Positions 4,302-32,316 of a stretch of DNA of 48,443 nucleotides are shown here, piece after piece (the stretch's first letter is position 1; each line of letters begins with the position of its first letter). The stretch comes from Spirochaetota bacterium. Its GTDB lineage: Bacteria; Spirochaetota; Brachyspiria; Brachyspirales; JACRPF01. The DNA lies in the NCBI GenBank assembly GCA_038043445.1, contig JBBTBY010000013.1, positions 1 through 48,443 on the forward strand, read 5' to 3'. Made by a program: the position numbers and the translations under genes. The notes under the pieces are model-generated. The model was not told where the DNA came from and did not search any database. It saw nothing but the letters and a program-made list of their open reading frames with translations.

Positions 4302-5633
4302 TCACCCGCCCTTCAATTGCTTCATTATCCACTCATATCGCTTCTTCAGTTCCTTCTCGAAACCGATGTCCGCAGGATCGTAGTACGATGCATTCTTCGA
4401 CAGATATTCCTGCGCGACGATGTGATAGGGGAAATTGTGCGGATATTTGTATTCACCCGGACCGTTCTTATCGCGTTCGGATGAGTGAGAATCCTTGAGA
4501 TAATTCGGTACCGCCGGCACATCACCGGCGCGAACTTCGGTAAGCGCTTTGTTTATCGCTCGATATGCCGAATTCGATTTCGGGCTCAGCGCGAGATAGA
4601 GCGCGCATTCGGAGAGTATGAGCGATGCCTCCGGCATGCCGACAAGATCGACGAGCGTGAACGCGGAGGCGGCCACCGTGAGTGCATTGGGGTCGGCTAA
4701 GCCTATGTCCTCGGCGGCAAGTATCGAGAGGCGGCGGGCTATGAAACGCGGGTCCTCGCCGGACTCAAGCATGCGCGCGAGATAGTGGACGGCCGCGTGG
4801 GGGTCGCTCCCGCGTATCGATTTTATGAACGCGCTTATGACATCATAATGCTCATCGCCGTCGCGGTCGTAGCGGAGTGCCTTCTTCTGCACCACCTCGG
4901 AAACAATGTCGCGCGTGACCGCGGTGCCGCGGTCCTCGTCCATGACGGAAGCGAGGAAAGCGAATTCAAGATACGTGAGCGCCTTGCGCACATCACCGAG
5001 CGCGGCCTTGACGATGGCGGTGACCGCGTCGTCGTCGATGGCGACCTTTTCGTTCCCGAGACCGTCGGCATGGGAGATGGCGCGCATGACCGATGAGCGC
5101 ACGTCGTCGTCGGAGAGTTCCTTGAACGCGAAGAGCATGACGCGCGAGAGAAGCGCATTGGTGAGATAGAAATACGGGTTCTGCGTTGTCGAGCCGATGA
5201 GTATCACCGTGCCCGCCTCGAGCGAGGGGAGGAGCGCGTCCTGCTGGCCTTTGTTGAAGCGGTGTATCTCATCGATGAAGAGTATCGTCTTCTTTCCGGC
5301 GCGGAGGTTCTTTTCGCCGGTGCGTATCGCATCGCGGAGTTCCGCCACGTTGGAAAGAACGGCGTTGATGCGGAGGTACGCGCAGTGCGTGCGTTCGGCG
5401 ATGATGGCCGCCAATGTCGATTTGCCGGTTCCCGGAGGGCCGTGGAAAATAAGCGAGGTGAGAATATCCCTTTCTATCAATCGGCGGAGGGGTTTTCCTT
5501 CTCCGAGAATATGCGATTGACCGGCCATATCAGCGAGCGTCCGCGGGCGCATTCTGTCGGCAAGCGGGCCTTTCGAACCGGATGTCCCCTCAGGCGGGGG
5601 CGCTTCATCAAAAAGATCGCTCGACTCCGCCAC
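4302..5633 (-). CDS. rarA: Replication-associated recombination protein A (AAA+ ATPase, MgsA/RarA)
   Basis: DNA-dependent AAA+ ATPase acting at stalled replication forks, related to the clamp-loader family and to eukaryotic WRNIP1. Walker A GPPGTGKST is near residue 66 and Walker B ILFIDEIHRF near residue 118. Sensor-region GSTTQNPYF and the C-terminal tetramer-domain motifs AAEDIGLADP and YKYPHNFPYHIVAQEYL are present. It is 443 aa, a normal length, and starts with GTG. It lies 12 bases downstream of the 5646-6638 gene on the same strand and is convergent with the phosphoesterase gene, with only eight bases between and no visible terminator. Confidence 0.96.
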   Translation of the reverse strand: MAESSDLFDEAPPPEGTSGSKGPLADRMRPRTLADMAGQSHILGEGKPLRRLIERDILTSLIFHGPPGTGKSTLAAIIAERTHCAYLRINAVLSNVAELRDAIRTGEKNLRAGKKTILFIDEIHRFNKGQQDALLPSLEAGTVILIGSTTQNPYFYLTNALLSRVMLFAFKELSDDDVRSSVMRAISHADGLGNEKVAIDDDAVTAIVKAALGDVRKALTYLEFAFLASVMDEDRGTAVTRDIVSEVVQKKALRYDRDGDEHYDVISAFIKSIRGSDPHAAVHYLARMLESGEDPRFIARRLSILAAEDIGLADPNALTVAASAFTLVDLVGMPEASLILSECALYLALSPKSNSAYRAINKALTEVRAGDVPAVPNYLKDSHSSERDKNGPGEYKYPHNFPYHIVAQEYLSKNASYYDPADIGFEKELKKRYEWIMKQLKGG

Positions 5634-5645
5634 GGGATTGTTCCG

Positions 5646-6638
5646 CTACTTCGGTGTGCGCGTTTTAATGACCGTATCGAGTGCGGTAAGATGATGGGCG
5701 AGCGTATCCAGGCGCGGCTTTAATTCATAGGCGAGGAGATCGGATACGGTGACGTAGTCGTCGGTCTTGAACGCATCGAGCACGCCCACGAGCACATCCT
5801 GAAGGCTTTTTATCTGCGCTTCGAGCGTGACGTTCCCGTGCGTGATGGACGAATAGTCGAGCGAGAACGTTTCCTGTATGCGCGCAAGGACGGAGATGAT
5901 GCTCCCCACGCCGTCGCAGAATTTATCGATGCCGGTAAGCGCCGCCTTATCGCGTCCCTTGTGGAGGAGGATAACGACCTTGTCGAGCAGCGATGAGAGC
6001 GGGGTGACGAGCCCGATGAGCGAGGCAAGGCGCTCATGCGCGTTCTCCGCCGTTATCGCGCCGCCGATCAGCTTCAAGAGCTGTATCTCGGCATTGGCGA
6101 TGTGCAGGAGCACATGATGCCCGAGGTCGGCGAGGAACGGGACTATGTCATCGGCAAAGAATTTCCGTGCGGACGCATCCGCATCGTTCACAAGCCGTGC
6201 GAGCCGCTCTTTCTTTATTTCAAGGAGCTTCAGCTTCTCGTTCGTGTTCTCCTCGTTGAGATTGATGCCGAGCAGATGCGCCGATCGCGGGAGTATCGAG
6301 ATGAGCCATCCGATGCCGTCCACCGCGTCGGCAAGCTTCACGGATGCGTCATCCTTCGCGGCAACGAGGCGTTCGATGTGCTCGTATGCGCTCGTAAGCG
6401 ACGTGTACGCGTATTCCTCGTATGCCATTGCGTGGAAATGTATCGTCTTCACGCCGGAAATCGGCACATCGCTCCCGGCATTATCGACGACATAGAGCAC
6501 GTTCCCGTCGACGACGACATCGGTTATCGCCATGCGCTCGCCGGCGCACCACGTTTCCATGCCTGCGATGATATCGGCCACGGTCTTTTCCTGTTCGACC
6601 TTGAGATCGAACGGCGTATCGTTGAGAAGGACCTGCAT
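5646..6638 (-). CDS. Conserved-looking helical protein of unknown function
   Basis: Not recognised. I placed the start at 6638 (MQVLLNDTPFDLK) because AGAGGAA sits eight bases upstream. In-frame ATGs further up (MKRNR, MAYYY) lack a ribosome site, and the remaining extension runs into repeat-like intergenic DNA. The 330-aa product has a small alpha/beta start of about 80 residues, reminiscent of a ubiquitin-like or CheW-like small domain (weak guess), then about 240 residues of mostly helical, Leu-rich sequence. No signal peptide or membrane segment is evident. It precedes rarA by 12 bases, which suggests co-transcription. Confidence 0.7.
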   Translation of the reverse strand: MQVLLNDTPFDLKVEQEKTVADIIAGMETWCAGERMAITDVVVDGNVLYVVDNAGSDVPISGVKTIHFHAMAYEEYAYTSLTSAYEHIERLVAAKDDASVKLADAVDGIGWLISILPRSAHLLGINLNEENTNEKLKLLEIKKERLARLVNDADASARKFFADDIVPFLADLGHHVLLHIANAEIQLLKLIGGAITAENAHERLASLIGLVTPLSSLLDKVVILLHKGRDKAALTGIDKFCDGVGSIISVLARIQETFSLDYSSITHGNVTLEAQIKSLQDVLVGVLDAFKTDDYVTVSDLLAYELKPRLDTLAHHLTALDTVIKTRTPK

Positions 6639-6707
6639 ACGATTCCTCTTCATGTTTACATAATAATACGCCATGGTATAGTTTTCCCGGCGAAATAGCA
6701 AGAATAC

Positions 6708-6915
6708 GGTGAGACCCAAATCCTCACATAAGGATAAAGAGAAACCACGGAGATCACGGAGAAAAGGCCGAGAAAGAACGGAAGGGCAGCTGAACATTTT
6801 CACCCGAAAGATGACACCCTCTGCGCATTATCCTCCATGCTTTTTATTGCACTCTCTTACGTCCTCTGTGCTCTCCGTGGTTTTATTTTCTTACGTGATA
6901 ATTCGGGTGAGACCC
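6708..6915. mobile_element. MITE-like inverted-repeat element with 10-bp flanking direct repeats
   Basis: Occupies most of the 378-base gap 6639-7016. The ten bases GGTGAGACCC occur at 6708-6717 and again at 6906-6915, flanking about 188 bases whose two ends are inverted copies. The best-conserved arms are 6741-6763 (CCACGGAGATCACGGAG) and 6863-6884 (its reverse complement with two changes), with weaker pairing outside them. No reading frame inside looks real. The structure fits a non-autonomous element with a target-site duplication, although the duplication could be coincidental. Confidence 0.55.
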
Positions 6916-7016
6916 GCCGCGGCAGCGAGTGATCGCGTATGCCGCTGTCCGGTGTTTACTTCGCCGGCTTGGATTATTACCTTATCTGCGAAGTAAATAT
7001 TGAGAAGGAGTTCCTC

Positions 7017-7574
7017 ATGAAAGCGATCATCCCACTTTCGTTCATGCTTCTTGCAGCTGCGCTCTCCGCGAGAACGTATATCGCGGACCCGGCGCATTCA
7101 AGCATCGGCTTCTCCGTGAAACATCTTGGGATAAGCACGGTGCGGGGACTGTTCAAGACGTTCACGACGACGTTCTCCGCCGATGAGGAGAAGGGCGTCA
7201 TCAGTGCGCTGTCAGCCGACATAGACACGGCAAGCGTGGATACGCGTGTGGATATGCGCGATAACCATCTTCGCAGCGCCGATTTCTTCGATGTGAAGCA
7301 GTTTCCCGCGGCGAAATTCGTCATGAAGTCGTATACGGGGACGAAGGCGGGCGGGAAGATCCTCGGCGATCTTACGCTGCACGGAGTTACAAAACCCGTA
7401 ACGCTCGACCTCGTTATCACGGGGAGCATGACGGACAAGAACGGCAAGACGCGCATCGCCGGTACCGCAACGGGTGTCATCAATCGCACCGATTTCGGCG
7501 TGGGAAAAAAGGGCGAAATGCCGGTCAGCGAGAGCGTTACGCTTACCATCGACATCGAGGCCATAGCGCAGTAA
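7017..7574 (+). CDS. YceI family periplasmic lipid-binding protein
   Basis: The start at 7017 follows GAGAAGGAG and opens a clear Sec signal peptide (MKAIIPLSFMLLAAALSA). The mature protein has the hallmarks of the YceI lipocalin-like barrel: an opening ADPAHSSIGFSVKHLGIS, DTRVDMRDNHLRSADFFDV, LTLHGVTKPVTLD and a closing INRTDFGVG. Family members bind polyprenoid or fatty-acid-like ligands in the periplasm. The ligand here cannot be read from sequence. Length is 185 aa, typical. It appears monocistronic, with a repeat element upstream and a small frame plus a separate promoter downstream. Confidence 0.93.
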   Translation: MKAIIPLSFMLLAAALSARTYIADPAHSSIGFSVKHLGISTVRGLFKTFTTTFSADEEKGVISALSADIDTASVDTRVDMRDNHLRSADFFDVKQFPAAKFVMKSYTGTKAGGKILGDLTLHGVTKPVTLDLVITGSMTDKNGKTRIAGTATGVINRTDFGVGKKGEMPVSESVTLTIDIEAIAQ

Positions 7575-27287: not shown

Positions 27288-27316
27288 TTGACAATATTAC
27301 ATGGTTTCAATATACT
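27288..27316 (+). promoter_or_regulatory. Strong sigma70-type promoter of the surface-protein operon
   Basis: Perfect TTGACA, a 17-base spacer and TATACT, about 135 bases before the ATG at 27458. The leader contains a small hairpin (CGGATG/CATCCG) near 27411-27426; I recognise no riboswitch. AGGAG lies seven bases before the ATG. Confidence 0.85.
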
Positions 27317-27457: not shown

Positions 27458-30400
27458 ATGAATCGCAACAAAATTTTCGCGTCGATCACCACATTGCTGC
27501 TTTTCGCCACCACTGCTGTCGCAACCGACATAGTGTCGAATGGTGGTTTCGAAAAGGCGACGTGGGAAACGACAGATTGGTTCTCAAATGTGGGAGCGAC
27601 GATTTCGGGTTCTCGCATGGGCCGGTCGAGCTTGTTTTCAAAGAACGGCGGTTTTTCATATTGGATATCAAATGCCGTACAACCGGCAGGGACGATGCAT
27701 TTTCAGTCCAGAACTAACGCTGCCTCCGCAGCAACAGGATACAGTTTTTCAGCGTGGATATTGCGTAAGAACTACGGCGGAGGGGGTCAATTGCAGGGAA
27801 ATTTGCGGGTCAATTGGCTCACGGCTGCTGATGGGGCCAATGGAAGCGCCACATTGTCGCTTACCGGTCTGGCAGATGGTGTGTGGTCGAATGCCAGTAA
27901 TGTGATCACAAGTCCGGCAGGCACGGCGAAGTTTTATATCACCGCTGAACCGCGACAAGTCCCCGCCAACGGAGGAAAGGTAATATTTTTTGACGACATA
28001 ACCTTGATCAACGGCATACCGCCGGTTGTAACATTGCTCAGTCCGCTCAATAATACCACGGGCGTTCTGGTGACGGCGAATATCGTTCTGACTTTCAATG
28101 TGGCTGTCGCGAAGGGCTCGGGCTATATTTATATTCGAAAATATATGGATGACAGTATTGTGCAGACAATTGATATAAACGATGCAACTCCGGGCGTTAT
28201 TACCATGGGCGCGACGAGCGTTACCATCAATCTTCCCGCCGATCTTGCATCAGCAACACAATACTATGTTACGGTTGACAGCGGGGCTATAAAAGACACA
28301 CAGGCCGTGCCGATCGATTTTCCCGGTATATCATCAAAAACAACGTGGAGATTTGTAACTACGGATGCTGTCCCTCCAACAGTGACCGCGCTCAGTCCTA
28401 CGAACGGTTCATTAAATATCATGCCGAGCAGGAGCCTTGTCCTCACCTTCGATGAAAGTGTAGCGAAGGGGGCGGGGAGCATCCTTATCAGGAATTATGT
28501 CGACGATACGACGATTCTCACGATACCCGTGACTTCCCCGGAGGTCACCGTATCGAACAATATCGTTACCATAAATCCGACGAATGATATTCTTGAAACA
28601 AATGTATATGTGAACATCCCTGCCGGCACTATACGAGACCTTTCAGCGAACAACCATGCTGGTTTCCTGGTGAAAACGGATTGGAACTTTCAGGTCTTCG
28701 ACGGTGTTGCACCGACAGTAACAGCGATAACTCCGCTCAACGGGGCGCTCGGCGTTGCCACCGCCAGCACATTGCAATTGGTTTTTACTGAGAATGTACA
28801 AAAAGGTACGGGGAATATTTACATAAAGAATTCTTTAGATGACAGCATCACCCATACCATCGATGTGACAAGCGGCAGCGTTGTAATCGCCAACACGGTT
28901 GTGACGATAACGCCGCCGGGCGGACTGCTCGTGGATAAGCAATACTATGTTACGATAGACGCTACCGCGATAAAGGACTTTGCCGCTGTCGCCAATTTTT
29001 ATTCAGGTATAAGCGGTAAGAACAGCTGGATGTTCCTGACGACCGGCGCGACCGCCCCTGGGATACTGTTACTCAGCCCTGCGGATGAGGCGGCCGGTGT
29101 ATCGTCCGAGGCGAACCTTGTGATCGCATTCGATAAGAACATATGCCTGTATCCCGGTGATGACGCAAGCGGAACCTATCGGTATTTTTCGATCTATCAG
29201 ACGGCAGGCCCGACGCTGCTTCAGCAGATCAAGTCCAGTGATGTTGTTATTTCAAATAATGCCATTTATATCAACCCTCCCAGCAACCTTCCCGAGGGAG
29301 CGATATATGTGAACATTGATTCCGGAGCGATAAGCAATCTCAGTCAAATGGCGTACGGGGGTATATTGAATAATACGACGTGGAATTTTACCGTCGCAGA
29401 TACAACACCACCGACCATTTTCATACTGAATCCGCCGAATAATTCGGCAGGTTTCAACCTGACTGCAGATATTGAAATAACATTTGATGAGGCTATACAA
29501 AAGGGAACGGGGAATATATACATCAAGAAATATTCCGATGACAGCATGGCACAGACAATCGATGTTGCCACTGCAGCGGTGACGATAGCAGGGAATAAGG
29601 CAACCATCAATCCACCGAGCGATCTTATCGCCGGTGTGCGCTACTATGTGACCATGGACGCAGGCGCTATAAAAGATACCGCGACAACGCAGAATAATTA
29701 CGGCGGGATAAGCGCAAAAACCGTGTGGTCATTCGTCGCTGCGGACACGACCGCGCCGACGGCGACCGCATTCTACCCATTGGACGGTGCGAGTGCCGTC
29801 GTGCCGAGCACGCCGCTCGCTATTTCCTTCAGTGAGGATATTCAAAAAGGATCGGGCTTTATCCAGATAAAACGCTCGAACGACAATGTGCTTCTCTTGG
29901 CGATCGATGTGCAGAGCACGAACGTGCTCGTAGCATCGAATGTCGTGCTCATCACGCATCCATTGTCCATCCCCGATACGAACGTGTATGTGAATATTGC
30001 CTCCGGCGTGATACAGGACCTTTCGGCGAATGAATATGCAGGGGTTACCGGTACTACGGATTGGGATTTCAGCATTCTTGATAATTTTGCTCCGGTGGTA
30101 ACTGCGTATACGCCGACGAACACACAGATCGGCGTTTCTGTCGGTGAATTTCTCCGGCTTACATTCGATGAAATAGTGCAAAAAGGGGCCGGCAATATCT
30201 ATATCAAGAATTTCGCGACCGATGCGGTGACACATACCATCGATGTGACGACGGCGAATGTCGCCATCGCCCTTAACAGGGTGACGATAACGCCGCCTGG
30301 CGGACTTGCGACGAACATGAAGTATTATGTGACCATCGATGCCGGCGCGATAAAGGATATGGCGAACGCGGTCAATAATTACGGGGGTATAAGCTCGAAG

Positions 30401-31027
30401 AGCGTGTGGTCGTTCGAAACACCCGATACATTGCCTCCGACCGTGCAGAGTCTTTCACCGACCAACGGCGATCGCTACGCGGGCATGTCGTCGAATCTCA
30501 TCATGACGTTCGTTGAGCCGATACTCTGGGCCGGCGGGAGTGATACGATCACGATAAAGCGTTTCATTGATAATACAACACTTTACACGTTCACGAACAA
30601 TGATCCGTCGGTTGTTATCAGCGGGAACGTCATCAGCATTGATCCGTCCGCCGAGCTGCCGAGGGAGAATCTATATGTCCTTATCGGGCCGACACTTCTC
30701 GTGGACAGAAGCGGCAACCTGTATGACGGCATAGCTGCAAATAACACATGGCAATTCACCGTGGGGGAGGCGATCTCCACCAACCGCGGAGTGCCATATA
30801 ACACCATAACTCGAAGGACGGATGCATCGGTGCGCTTCAATAATCTTGTTGCCGGCGACGAGATATGGATATACTCGGCGAGCGGATACAAACTCGCCAC
30901 TGTGCCGTATGTGGCCGCAACGACGTACTGGACGATACCGGCGAATTTAAGCTCGGGCGTCTATATCGTGAAGATACGCAACAGCGGTGCCTTTGTCGGT
31001 TCGTATAAAATAGTGATACTGCGGTAA
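27458..31027 (+). CDS. Large surface protein: carbohydrate-binding-like domain, eight Ig-like (Big_5/SbsA-type) domains, sorting-like C-terminus
   Basis: An 1189-aa exported protein. Signal peptide residues 1-22. Residues about 24-185 look like a galactose-binding/CBM-type beta-sandwich (SNGGFEKATWETTDW, FFDDITLINGI). Eight Ig-like domains start near residues 188, 305, 420, 532, 651, 765, 877 and 993, each opening like PPTVTALSPTNG. They alternate between type A (YYVTIDAGAIKD) and type B (VYVNI), giving four A-B pairs. Residues about 1107-1189 resemble a type IX/FlgD-like C-terminal domain (EIWIYSASGYKLATV, SSGVYIVKIRNSG, YKIVILR). The gene is more AT-rich than its surroundings. Its neighbour, 21 bases on, is PorV-like. 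Confidence 0.85.
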   Translation: MNRNKIFASITTLLLFATTAVATDIVSNGGFEKATWETTDWFSNVGATISGSRMGRSSLFSKNGGFSYWISNAVQPAGTMHFQSRTNAASAATGYSFSAWILRKNYGGGGQLQGNLRVNWLTAADGANGSATLSLTGLADGVWSNASNVITSPAGTAKFYITAEPRQVPANGGKVIFFDDITLINGIPPVVTLLSPLNNTTGVLVTANIVLTFNVAVAKGSGYIYIRKYMDDSIVQTIDINDATPGVITMGATSVTINLPADLASATQYYVTVDSGAIKDTQAVPIDFPGISSKTTWRFVTTDAVPPTVTALSPTNGSLNIMPSRSLVLTFDESVAKGAGSILIRNYVDDTTILTIPVTSPEVTVSNNIVTINPTNDILETNVYVNIPAGTIRDLSANNHAGFLVKTDWNFQVFDGVAPTVTAITPLNGALGVATASTLQLVFTENVQKGTGNIYIKNSLDDSITHTIDVTSGSVVIANTVVTITPPGGLLVDKQYYVTIDATAIKDFAAVANFYSGISGKNSWMFLTTGATAPGILLLSPADEAAGVSSEANLVIAFDKNICLYPGDDASGTYRYFSIYQTAGPTLLQQIKSSDVVISNNAIYINPPSNLPEGAIYVNIDSGAISNLSQMAYGGILNNTTWNFTVADTTPPTIFILNPPNNSAGFNLTADIEITFDEAIQKGTGNIYIKKYSDDSMAQTIDVATAAVTIAGNKATINPPSDLIAGVRYYVTMDAGAIKDTATTQNNYGGISAKTVWSFVAADTTAPTATAFYPLDGASAVVPSTPLAISFSEDIQKGSGFIQIKRSNDNVLLLAIDVQSTNVLVASNVVLITHPLSIPDTNVYVNIASGVIQDLSANEYAGVTGTTDWDFSILDNFAPVVTAYTPTNTQIGVSVGEFLRLTFDEIVQKGAGNIYIKNFATDAVTHTIDVTTANVAIALNRVTITPPGGLATNMKYYVTIDAGAIKDMANAVNNYGGISSKSVWSFETPDTLPPTVQSLSPTNGDRYAGMSSNLIMTFVEPILWAGGSDTITIKRFIDNTTLYTFTNNDPSVVISGNVISIDPSAELPRENLYVLIGPTLLVDRSGNLYDGIAANNTWQFTVGEAISTNRGVPYNTITRRTDASVRFNNLVAGDEIWIYSASGYKLATVPYVAATTYWTIPANLSSGVYIVKIRNSGAFVGSYKIVILR

Positions 31028-31048
31028 CCAGGGAGAAAGGATAGTACC

Positions 31049-32239
31049 ATGAAAATAACAAAGATATTCTGCATCGCAGCGATCGCGTTATCACCCGTTC
31101 TCGCGCAGTTCACCGGCACCGGCGTTACGGCGCTTTCCATTGCACCCGACGCGCGCTCGGCGGGACTGGCGGACGCCAATGCAACGTTCTCGGGCACGTT
31201 AAGTTCGATATTCGGGAACCCGGCAGGGCTCTCGTCGATGAAAGGCATGCAGATCGCCGGACAATATACGATGCACATCGAAGGCATGCATTACGGCAAT
31301 GTGTCCTGGGGTATGCCGCTGCCGTTCGGTGCGATAGGGGTGAATGTCATCGGATTCACTTATGGTGACATACCGAACTATGTCGAAGGCGTGCTTTCCG
31401 GATCGCTTATGCCGTTCGATGTGGTCGCCAATATCGGATACGCTGTCCCGCTCAGTTTCGCCCCCATTCTGTCGAACCTGTCGGCAGGCATAGTCGCCCG
31501 GGTGATGATGGAAAGCCTCGGGCCGACGTATCAGGGATTCGGTTTTGCCGGCGATGTGGGCATACTCTGGCGCGGCATTGTGGGCGCGTTCGTCAACAAT
31601 GAATGGCTGAACGGCATAGACTTGGGCGTGGTCGCGCGCAACCTCGGCGTAGGCCCCGCCTTTGATGGCGGCAAGGCGGTCACCCTTCCCATGACCATAG
31701 CCATAGGCCTCGGCTATACCCTGCCGCTTCGCGACAATGCGGGACAGTTCGCATCGTTCCGCATCCCCATCGATGTGCTGCCGATTTCGGAAATAGGTTT
31801 CGATATGCGCTACGGCGTGGAATTCTCCTACGAACGATTGCCCCTCGGCATGAAGATATCCGCACGCGCGGGCGCCGGTCTCCCCTACGCGGGCGACATA
31901 CTCGGCACGCTCCGCTTCGGTGCGGGCTTTGAGATACTCGGCATCGCGATACAGTATGCCTTCGTGAACAAGGCCGACCTCGGAGCGGACCATGCCATCG
32001 GGCTCTCATACCGCTTCGATACCGTGCCGCTTGAAGCGCCGAAAGCCGTCGATACAAAGCCTGTGGATACCAAACCCCTCGATACGAAACCGGCGGATAA
32101 GGCGGGGGTCAAGCCGCTGGATACAAAACCGGTCGATGCGAAGCCCGTGACGACGCCGGTGAAACCCGTAACGACGACACCGGTAAAGCCGGCGGATACG
32201 AAACCGGCGACAACAACTCCGGCGAAGACAGGGAAATAG
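31049..32239 (+). CDS. PorV/UPF0164-like outer-membrane protein with repetitive C-terminal tail
   Basis: A 396-aa protein with a signal peptide (MKITKIFCIAAIALSPVLA). The opening GVTALSIAPDARSAGLADA and FGNPAGLSSMKG is the signature of the PorV/PorQ and treponemal UPF0164 barrels (family knowledge). The rest alternates barrel-like strands. The last 60 residues are Pro/Lys/Thr-rich with DTKP-type repeats, an unusual extension beyond the barrel. In type IX secretion PorV brings C-terminal-domain cargo to the cell surface; the adjacent multi-Ig protein could be such a client, but no other type IX genes are in the window. Confidence 0.82.
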   Translation: MKITKIFCIAAIALSPVLAQFTGTGVTALSIAPDARSAGLADANATFSGTLSSIFGNPAGLSSMKGMQIAGQYTMHIEGMHYGNVSWGMPLPFGAIGVNVIGFTYGDIPNYVEGVLSGSLMPFDVVANIGYAVPLSFAPILSNLSAGIVARVMMESLGPTYQGFGFAGDVGILWRGIVGAFVNNEWLNGIDLGVVARNLGVGPAFDGGKAVTLPMTIAIGLGYTLPLRDNAGQFASFRIPIDVLPISEIGFDMRYGVEFSYERLPLGMKISARAGAGLPYAGDILGTLRFGAGFEILGIAIQYAFVNKADLGADHAIGLSYRFDTVPLEAPKAVDTKPVDTKPLDTKPADKAGVKPLDTKPVDAKPVTTPVKPVTTTPVKPADTKPATTTPAKTGK

Positions 32240-32284: not shown

Positions 32285-32316
32285 AGAACAAGGGCCCATG
32301 AGCCCTTGTTCTTTAT
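32285..32316. terminator. Bidirectional terminator
   Basis: Eleven-pair stem AGAACAAGGGC / GCCCTTGTTCT with a six-base loop, between the convergent PorV-like gene and the FAD oxidoreductase gene. The T tracts on both sides are short. Confidence 0.75.

Follow-up and report, generated by a model that had tools for sequence, protein, structure and literature searches.

A CTD cargo gene and its PorV-like neighbour as a proposed cargo-shuttle pair of a type IX-like export route in Spirochaetota

According to reviews, the type IX secretion route is confined to Bacteroidota and their close relatives. In F. johnsoniae a carrier binds the C-terminal sorting domain (CTD) of the substrate at SprA, and extraction of the carrier-substrate complex needs energy from the GldLM motor (PMC10994853). 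In Bacteroidota one PorV carries all type A cargo, and cognate shuttles exist for type B cargo alone; these are the PorP/SprF proteins, encoded directly downstream of the cargo, which are believed to be produced in stoichiometric amounts and to have a role once secretion is over, for example as anchors (PMC12618676, PMC9143113). A search of the open-access literature, which left subscription papers outside its reach, found no account of Spirochaetota with SprA, PorV pairs or CTD proteins. Here we describe two neighbouring genes that probably encode a cargo and its shuttle for a type IX-like route of export across the outer membrane in this phylum, secretion itself being inferred and not demonstrated.

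The arrangement resembles both branches of the Bacteroidota system. With the type A/PorV branch (6h3i; PMC10994853) it has in common a SprA-type translocon, a PorV-family barrel and Sec-dependent proteins whose very C-terminus is a type A-like CTD, but in the spirochaete PorV-like genes are numerous and as a rule one follows each cargo gene directly, searches of the genome did not detect PorM, PorN or C25/PorU, and the host lies in Spirochaetota. With type B CTDs and PorP/SprF (PMC12618676, PMC9143113) it shares a shuttle gene directly downstream of the cargo, an apparent one-to-one pairing and a shuttle proposed as surface anchor, whereas its CTD is type A-like (TIGR04183) and its shuttle belongs to the PorV/PorQ family. 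In the order of its genes the spirochaete arrangement follows the type B branch, while its parts are type A-like.

The window, by which we mean the whole stretch of 48,443 nucleotides that was analysed (G000:C13:1-48443), comes from an assembly, here called G000, of 5.13 Mb in 178 contigs with 1.95% estimated contamination. An earlier note on this DNA had supposed a spirochaete-type host, and the genome is indeed in Spirochaetota, in the order of Brachyspira murdochii but in another family. The features of the two-gene region are as follows.

27288..27316, + strand: promoter-like site TTGACA-N17-TATACT, 11 of 12, upstream of the cargo gene (consensus scan)
27458..31027, + strand: cargo gene, 1189 aa (open reading frame; Pfam Big_5; TIGR04183)
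27458..27523, + strand: Sec-type signal peptide, about 22 aa, MNRNKIFASITTLLLFATTAVA (read from sequence; hydrophobic core score 2.28)
28025..30710, + strand: multi-Ig passenger region of Big_5 repeats, approximate limits (hmmscan)
30761..31024, + strand: CTD, the last 88 residues (TIGR04183, alignment, local profile)
31030..31040, + strand: Shine-Dalgarno-like AGGGAGAAAGG before the PorV-like gene (sequence)
31049..32239, + strand: PorV-like outer-membrane barrel gene, 396 aa, proposed cognate shuttle/anchor (NF033709; profile of relatives against 6h3i)
32018..32236, + strand: Lys/Pro/Thr-rich low-complexity tail after the barrel, predicted to be periplasmic (read from sequence; outside the NF033709 match)
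32285..32312, + strand: terminator-like hairpin of 11 pairs, closing the two-gene unit (scan)

The product of the upstream gene had been read as a multi-Ig protein with a type A sorting-like C-terminus, and both parts of that reading are borne out. Following the signal peptide and an N-terminal domain, it has eight Ig-like domains, matched by Pfam Big_5 in 8 stretches (E 5e-92), and ends in the type A sorting domain. Of 47 complete CTD proteins, 42 likewise have an N-terminal hydrophobic segment, compared with 148 of 351 other proteins. The T9SS type A sorting domain model TIGR04183, with a curated cut-off of 23, scored the cargo C-terminus at 24.3 bits when the genome was searched and at 24.5 bits when the domain was taken alone; the whole 1189-aa protein scored 20.0 bits, that is, below the cut-off, and Pfam Por_Secre_tail also stayed below its own, with 16.3 of 27 bits. 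Alignment of the CTD with 12 other C-termini from the same genome revealed a conserved G-x-Y and a conserved C-terminal arginine. A local CTD profile, derived from G000 and its relatives and joined by the window cargo itself during iteration, matched the cargo with E 9e-13 and had zero matches among 816 reversed C-termini, and the match is therefore not a matter of chance.

Searches of solved structures point in the same direction. When a profile of 13 C-termini from G000 was compared with all solved structures, the CTD of PorZ came first (E 9e-9, full length) and that of PorU second (6e-5), while FlgD reached 0.0075 and the cargo CTDs solved in SprA complexes 0.02-0.07. Unrelated beta-propeller proteins (E 0.001-0.006) rank between the PorU CTD and FlgD; as these are chance-level matches, only those to PorZ and PorU are meaningful. 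FlgD_ig (PF13860) had no match in the 1189-aa protein up to E 1, and several C-termini related to that of the window do match it. These profile comparisons make the C-terminus of the cargo a type A-like CTD of the T9SS and not merely a FlgD-like domain. The pair does not fit the pattern of a type B CTD with a PorP/SprF-family shuttle: its CTD matches type A and the neighbour belongs to the PorV/PorQ family.

That neighbour starts 21 bp after the cargo stop codon on the same strand, and its description in the earlier note as PorV-like stands. It scored 97 bits with the PorV/PorQ family model NF033709 (curated cut-off 90, residues 24-323), and a profile of its relatives matched the PorV of the solved SprA complex 6h3i with E 4e-29. 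With the PorV equivalog model NF033710 it reached only 35 bits, the cut-off being 250, and it fell far short of the cut-offs of the PorQ and PorV2 equivalog models; as far as NF033710 can tell, the barrel is PorV-like and no PorV ortholog. Used as query in a contig scan across genomes, the low-complexity tail returned only unrelated tails, and a tblastn search of plasmids with the PorV-like gene gave no match. With a promoter-like site before the cargo gene, a Shine-Dalgarno-like stretch between the genes and a hairpin after them, the pair looks like a single two-gene unit, which remains an inference from sequence; promoter-like sites are no commoner in this region than in shuffled sequence, so the one listed is weak alone.

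Beyond what the earlier note had seen, the pairing recurs across the genome and the phylum. The genome encodes 13 CTD proteins by TIGR04183, the window cargo included, so that at least 12 others share its C-terminus, and 14 PorV-like proteins by NF033709; most pairs are adjacent with the cargo gene first. Local profiles run over the neighbourhoods fetched from G000 found 18 PorV-like genes; 13 of them directly follow a CTD gene of the same strand, one of these 13, on contig C75, being a 187-aa fragment, and just upstream of a further two (contigs C45 and C134) there is a TIGR04183 match that gene picking had missed. Over the neighbourhoods from G000 and other phylum genomes together, a CTD gene lies immediately upstream of 47 of 88 PorV-like genes, compared with 12 of 667 other genes (P 7e-39), and the intergenic gaps within pairs are mostly -4 to 44 bp. 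The neighbourhoods were picked for holding PorV or CTD matches, and the absolute pairing fractions are not genome-wide rates. Some CTD genes of G000, on contigs C87, C12 and C72, have no adjoining PorV; the C12 and C72 proteins, with no PorV-like gene behind them, may borrow a shuttle.

CTD and PorV also look like cognate partners by descent. Within genomes, CTD similarity correlates with the similarity of the adjacent PorVs (rho 0.25, P 0.007 by within-genome permutation), a correlation which rests on G000 and G012 and is not seen in G025 and G036. When pairs are compared between genomes, the closest CTD in another genome is the partner of the closest PorV for 20 of 46 pairs, where 3.3 are expected (P 0.001), and 1000 shuffles gave at most 14 such coincidences. 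Part of this observed match comes from whole operons inherited together. The nearest partners of the window pair are pairs of G036 and G012, with unrelated passengers: the cargo proteins align only over the last 80 residues, and the PorVs are 33% identical. Since CTD and PorV are related here and the passengers are not, comparison of these sequences suggests that CTD and PorV are inherited as a unit with the passenger swapped.

A search of the genome for sov/SprA, which the earlier note had proposed, was successful, although not with the existing model. The NCBIfam SprA model TIGR04189 had no match in G000; of the 198 phylum genomes, 73 had sub-cutoff matches to it, in collinear pieces, on open reading frames of mostly about 1,850-2,300 aa. 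An alignment of 19 such Spirochaetota sequences matched F. johnsoniae SprA (6h3i) with E 4e-46, whereas phmmer searches of solved structures with single SprA proteins found nothing. A phylum profile of 12 of these Spirochaetota sequences then placed SprA at G000:C116:1-4404 (E 1e-232, profile positions 692-1939). This protein is 1468 aa long and its N-terminal part is off the contig; the likely reason for the TIGR04189 miss is that SprA, cut by the contig start, lacks the part in which that model scores best. The phylum profile detects homologs in 79 of the 198 genomes, single-contig genomes such as G026 among them, and in G159, of the same family as G000, the SprA contig also carries ribosomal protein genes and rpoA.

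The presence of SprA goes with that of CTDs. Co-occurrence was assessed at thresholds of two and three TIGR04183 matches per genome, and SprA was present in 26 of 27 genomes with three or more; the sole CTD-rich genome without it, G033, is 76% complete. Single matches were not used as evidence because they are often short open reading frames, those of 120-160 aa among them being probably FlgD. In 53 SprA-bearing genomes fewer than three CTDs were detected, and there SprA may also serve something else. Families f20, f28, f9 and others (e.g. L134-L142) have SprA and few CTDs, with a well-matching PorV-family gene of about 400 aa that does not adjoin a CTD gene. More distant and shorter SprA-like open reading frames (about 1,580-1,630 aa) occur in G006, G049 and G142 of family f8 and match the profile only over positions of about 705-1008.

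Other components of the Bacteroidota system were not detected. PorN/GldN (PF19841) was found in neither G000 nor G159, with one weak sub-threshold match in 198 genomes; PorM/GldM (TIGR03517) was likewise found in neither, with sub-threshold short matches in 4 of 198; and a PorU-type C25 peptidase (PF01364) was found in neither, while five other phylum genomes have one over the cut-off. None of these searches had a positive control. With SprA/Sov present and PorM, PorN and C25/PorU undetected, the suggestion of a reduced or parallel surface-display route is supported, but negative profile searches without a control, which left out PorK and PorL, do not prove a reduction, and we speak of a route that is either reduced or diverged.

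According to the route that we propose, the cargo would cross into the periplasm via Sec, the SprA/Sov-like translocon, whose gene lies elsewhere in the genome, would take up its CTD, and the cargo would then exit SprA sideways in complex with its own PorV-like barrel, the product of the next gene on the same transcript. Since the searches found no sortase of the C25/PorU type, the barrel most likely remains attached to the cargo and anchors it in the outer membrane. Whereas the identities of the genes, their pairing, the presence of SprA, its co-occurrence with CTD-rich genomes and the matched inheritance of CTD and PorV are shown by the sequence data, export itself, the specificity of each PorV and its retention as anchor are inferred, as is the way in which extraction of the complex from SprA is powered in the absence of a detected PorL/M-N apparatus. 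No experiment supports export, and the genome's own SprA is truncated by the contig start. The further step, that a SprA-type translocon works with neither a PorL/M-K/N motor nor a sortase, each type A cargo's own PorV leaving with the cargo and staying as a permanent, sometimes cell-wall-tethered anchor, can be offered only as a tentative conjecture that is more apt to fail than to hold.

A somewhat stronger case, if still short of an even one, can be made for an ordinary and complete T9SS whose PorK, PorL, PorM, PorN and PorU homologs are too diverged for profiles trained on Bacteroidota. TIGR04189 likewise missed the genome's own SprA until the phylum profile was used, no control genome matched GldN or GldM and the sensitivity of the searches is accordingly undemonstrated, and F. 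johnsoniae SprA requires the motor for substrate release (PMC10994853). The SprA model is, however, equally Bacteroidota-trained and still matched, below cut-off, in 73 genomes, while GldN and GldM gave only a few sub-threshold matches in 198 and none in G000 or G159. A different doubt concerns the specificity of the pairs: the PorV-like protein could be a general, recyclable shuttle as in Bacteroidota, where one PorV serves all type A cargo (PMC12618676), adjacency reflecting co-regulation only. The orphan CTD genes of G000, which must borrow a PorV, and the missing correlation in G025 and G036 speak for this. We nevertheless regard it as unlikely, because a single genome has at least 14 PorV-like genes, in most cases one for each cargo, and because nearest CTD and PorV partners coincide far above chance even without passenger similarity.

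Two other explanations would remove the export route altogether. That a plain FlgD-type Ig domain and a FadL-type porin are adjacent by accident, with no type IX-like export, draws on the distant similarity between the CTDs and the FlgD Ig-like domain (PF13860), direct for several sibling C-termini that match FlgD_ig, on lone TIGR04183 matches in SprA-less genomes that are probably FlgD, and on PorV-family genes in such genomes, for example in family f19. The f19 barrels are of the same family but have neither SprA nor a CTD gene upstream, and the PorV family would have a different role there. The window CTD, on the other hand, matches TIGR04183 and not PF13860, the profile search places T9SS CTDs above FlgD, the cargo is a surface-type multi-domain protein, and SprA is present in G000. 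The condition set by the earlier note for its own refutation, a C-terminus that matches FlgD-like domains only and is shared by no other protein, is not fulfilled, and with the presence of SprA, the pairing statistics and the matched inheritance of CTD and PorV we consider a FlgD-only reading largely refuted and very improbable. Recent acquisition of the pair from Bacteroidota, or contaminating contigs, is harder still to credit. The assembly is in 178 contigs with some estimated contamination, but SprA lies with ribosomal protein genes and rpoA in G159 and is found in single-contig genomes, so contamination does not explain it and was rejected; moreover, SprA homologs within the phylum can be aligned with one another over their whole length but with the Bacteroidota model only in part.

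Should the cargo-shuttle reading hold, a SprA-PorV-CTD set that is widespread in Spirochaetota would shift the boundaries known for the type IX system and predict which proteins these spirochaetes display. It would also serve as a natural test, showing whether motor and sortase are indispensable or were added later, and the cognate CTD-PorV pairs would offer many natural sets for studying how a shuttle recognises its signal.

Some PorV-like barrels are fused to other domains, namely OmpA (L043 on contig C78 of G000, 4508-7267), TPR (L034 on C21, 6342-9839), PEGA (L028 on C64, 716-3325) and, with a weak match, LysM (L033 on C167, 2327-4867). We infer that these domains possibly tie some of the barrels to the cell wall, which would parallel the proposed PorP-PorE link of P. 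gingivalis. Large CTD proteins at three loci, L026 (C75), L031 (C12) and L032 (C72), have a common N-terminal TIGR03790 domain. Beside the C75 cargo (L026, 9442-11985) are two proteins of 414 and 418 aa with a YGDPTL motif at the end, which recalls C25 peptidases; neither matched a Pfam or NCBIfam family. At L147-L151, in family f19 and relatives without SprA, the PorV-family gene stands beside a conserved TPR-like protein of about 1030 aa. Very large expansions of both CTD and PorV were seen in G012, G025 and G036 (families f13 and f23), with 66-78 CTD candidates (27 scored) and 61-82 PorV candidates (10 scored) per genome.
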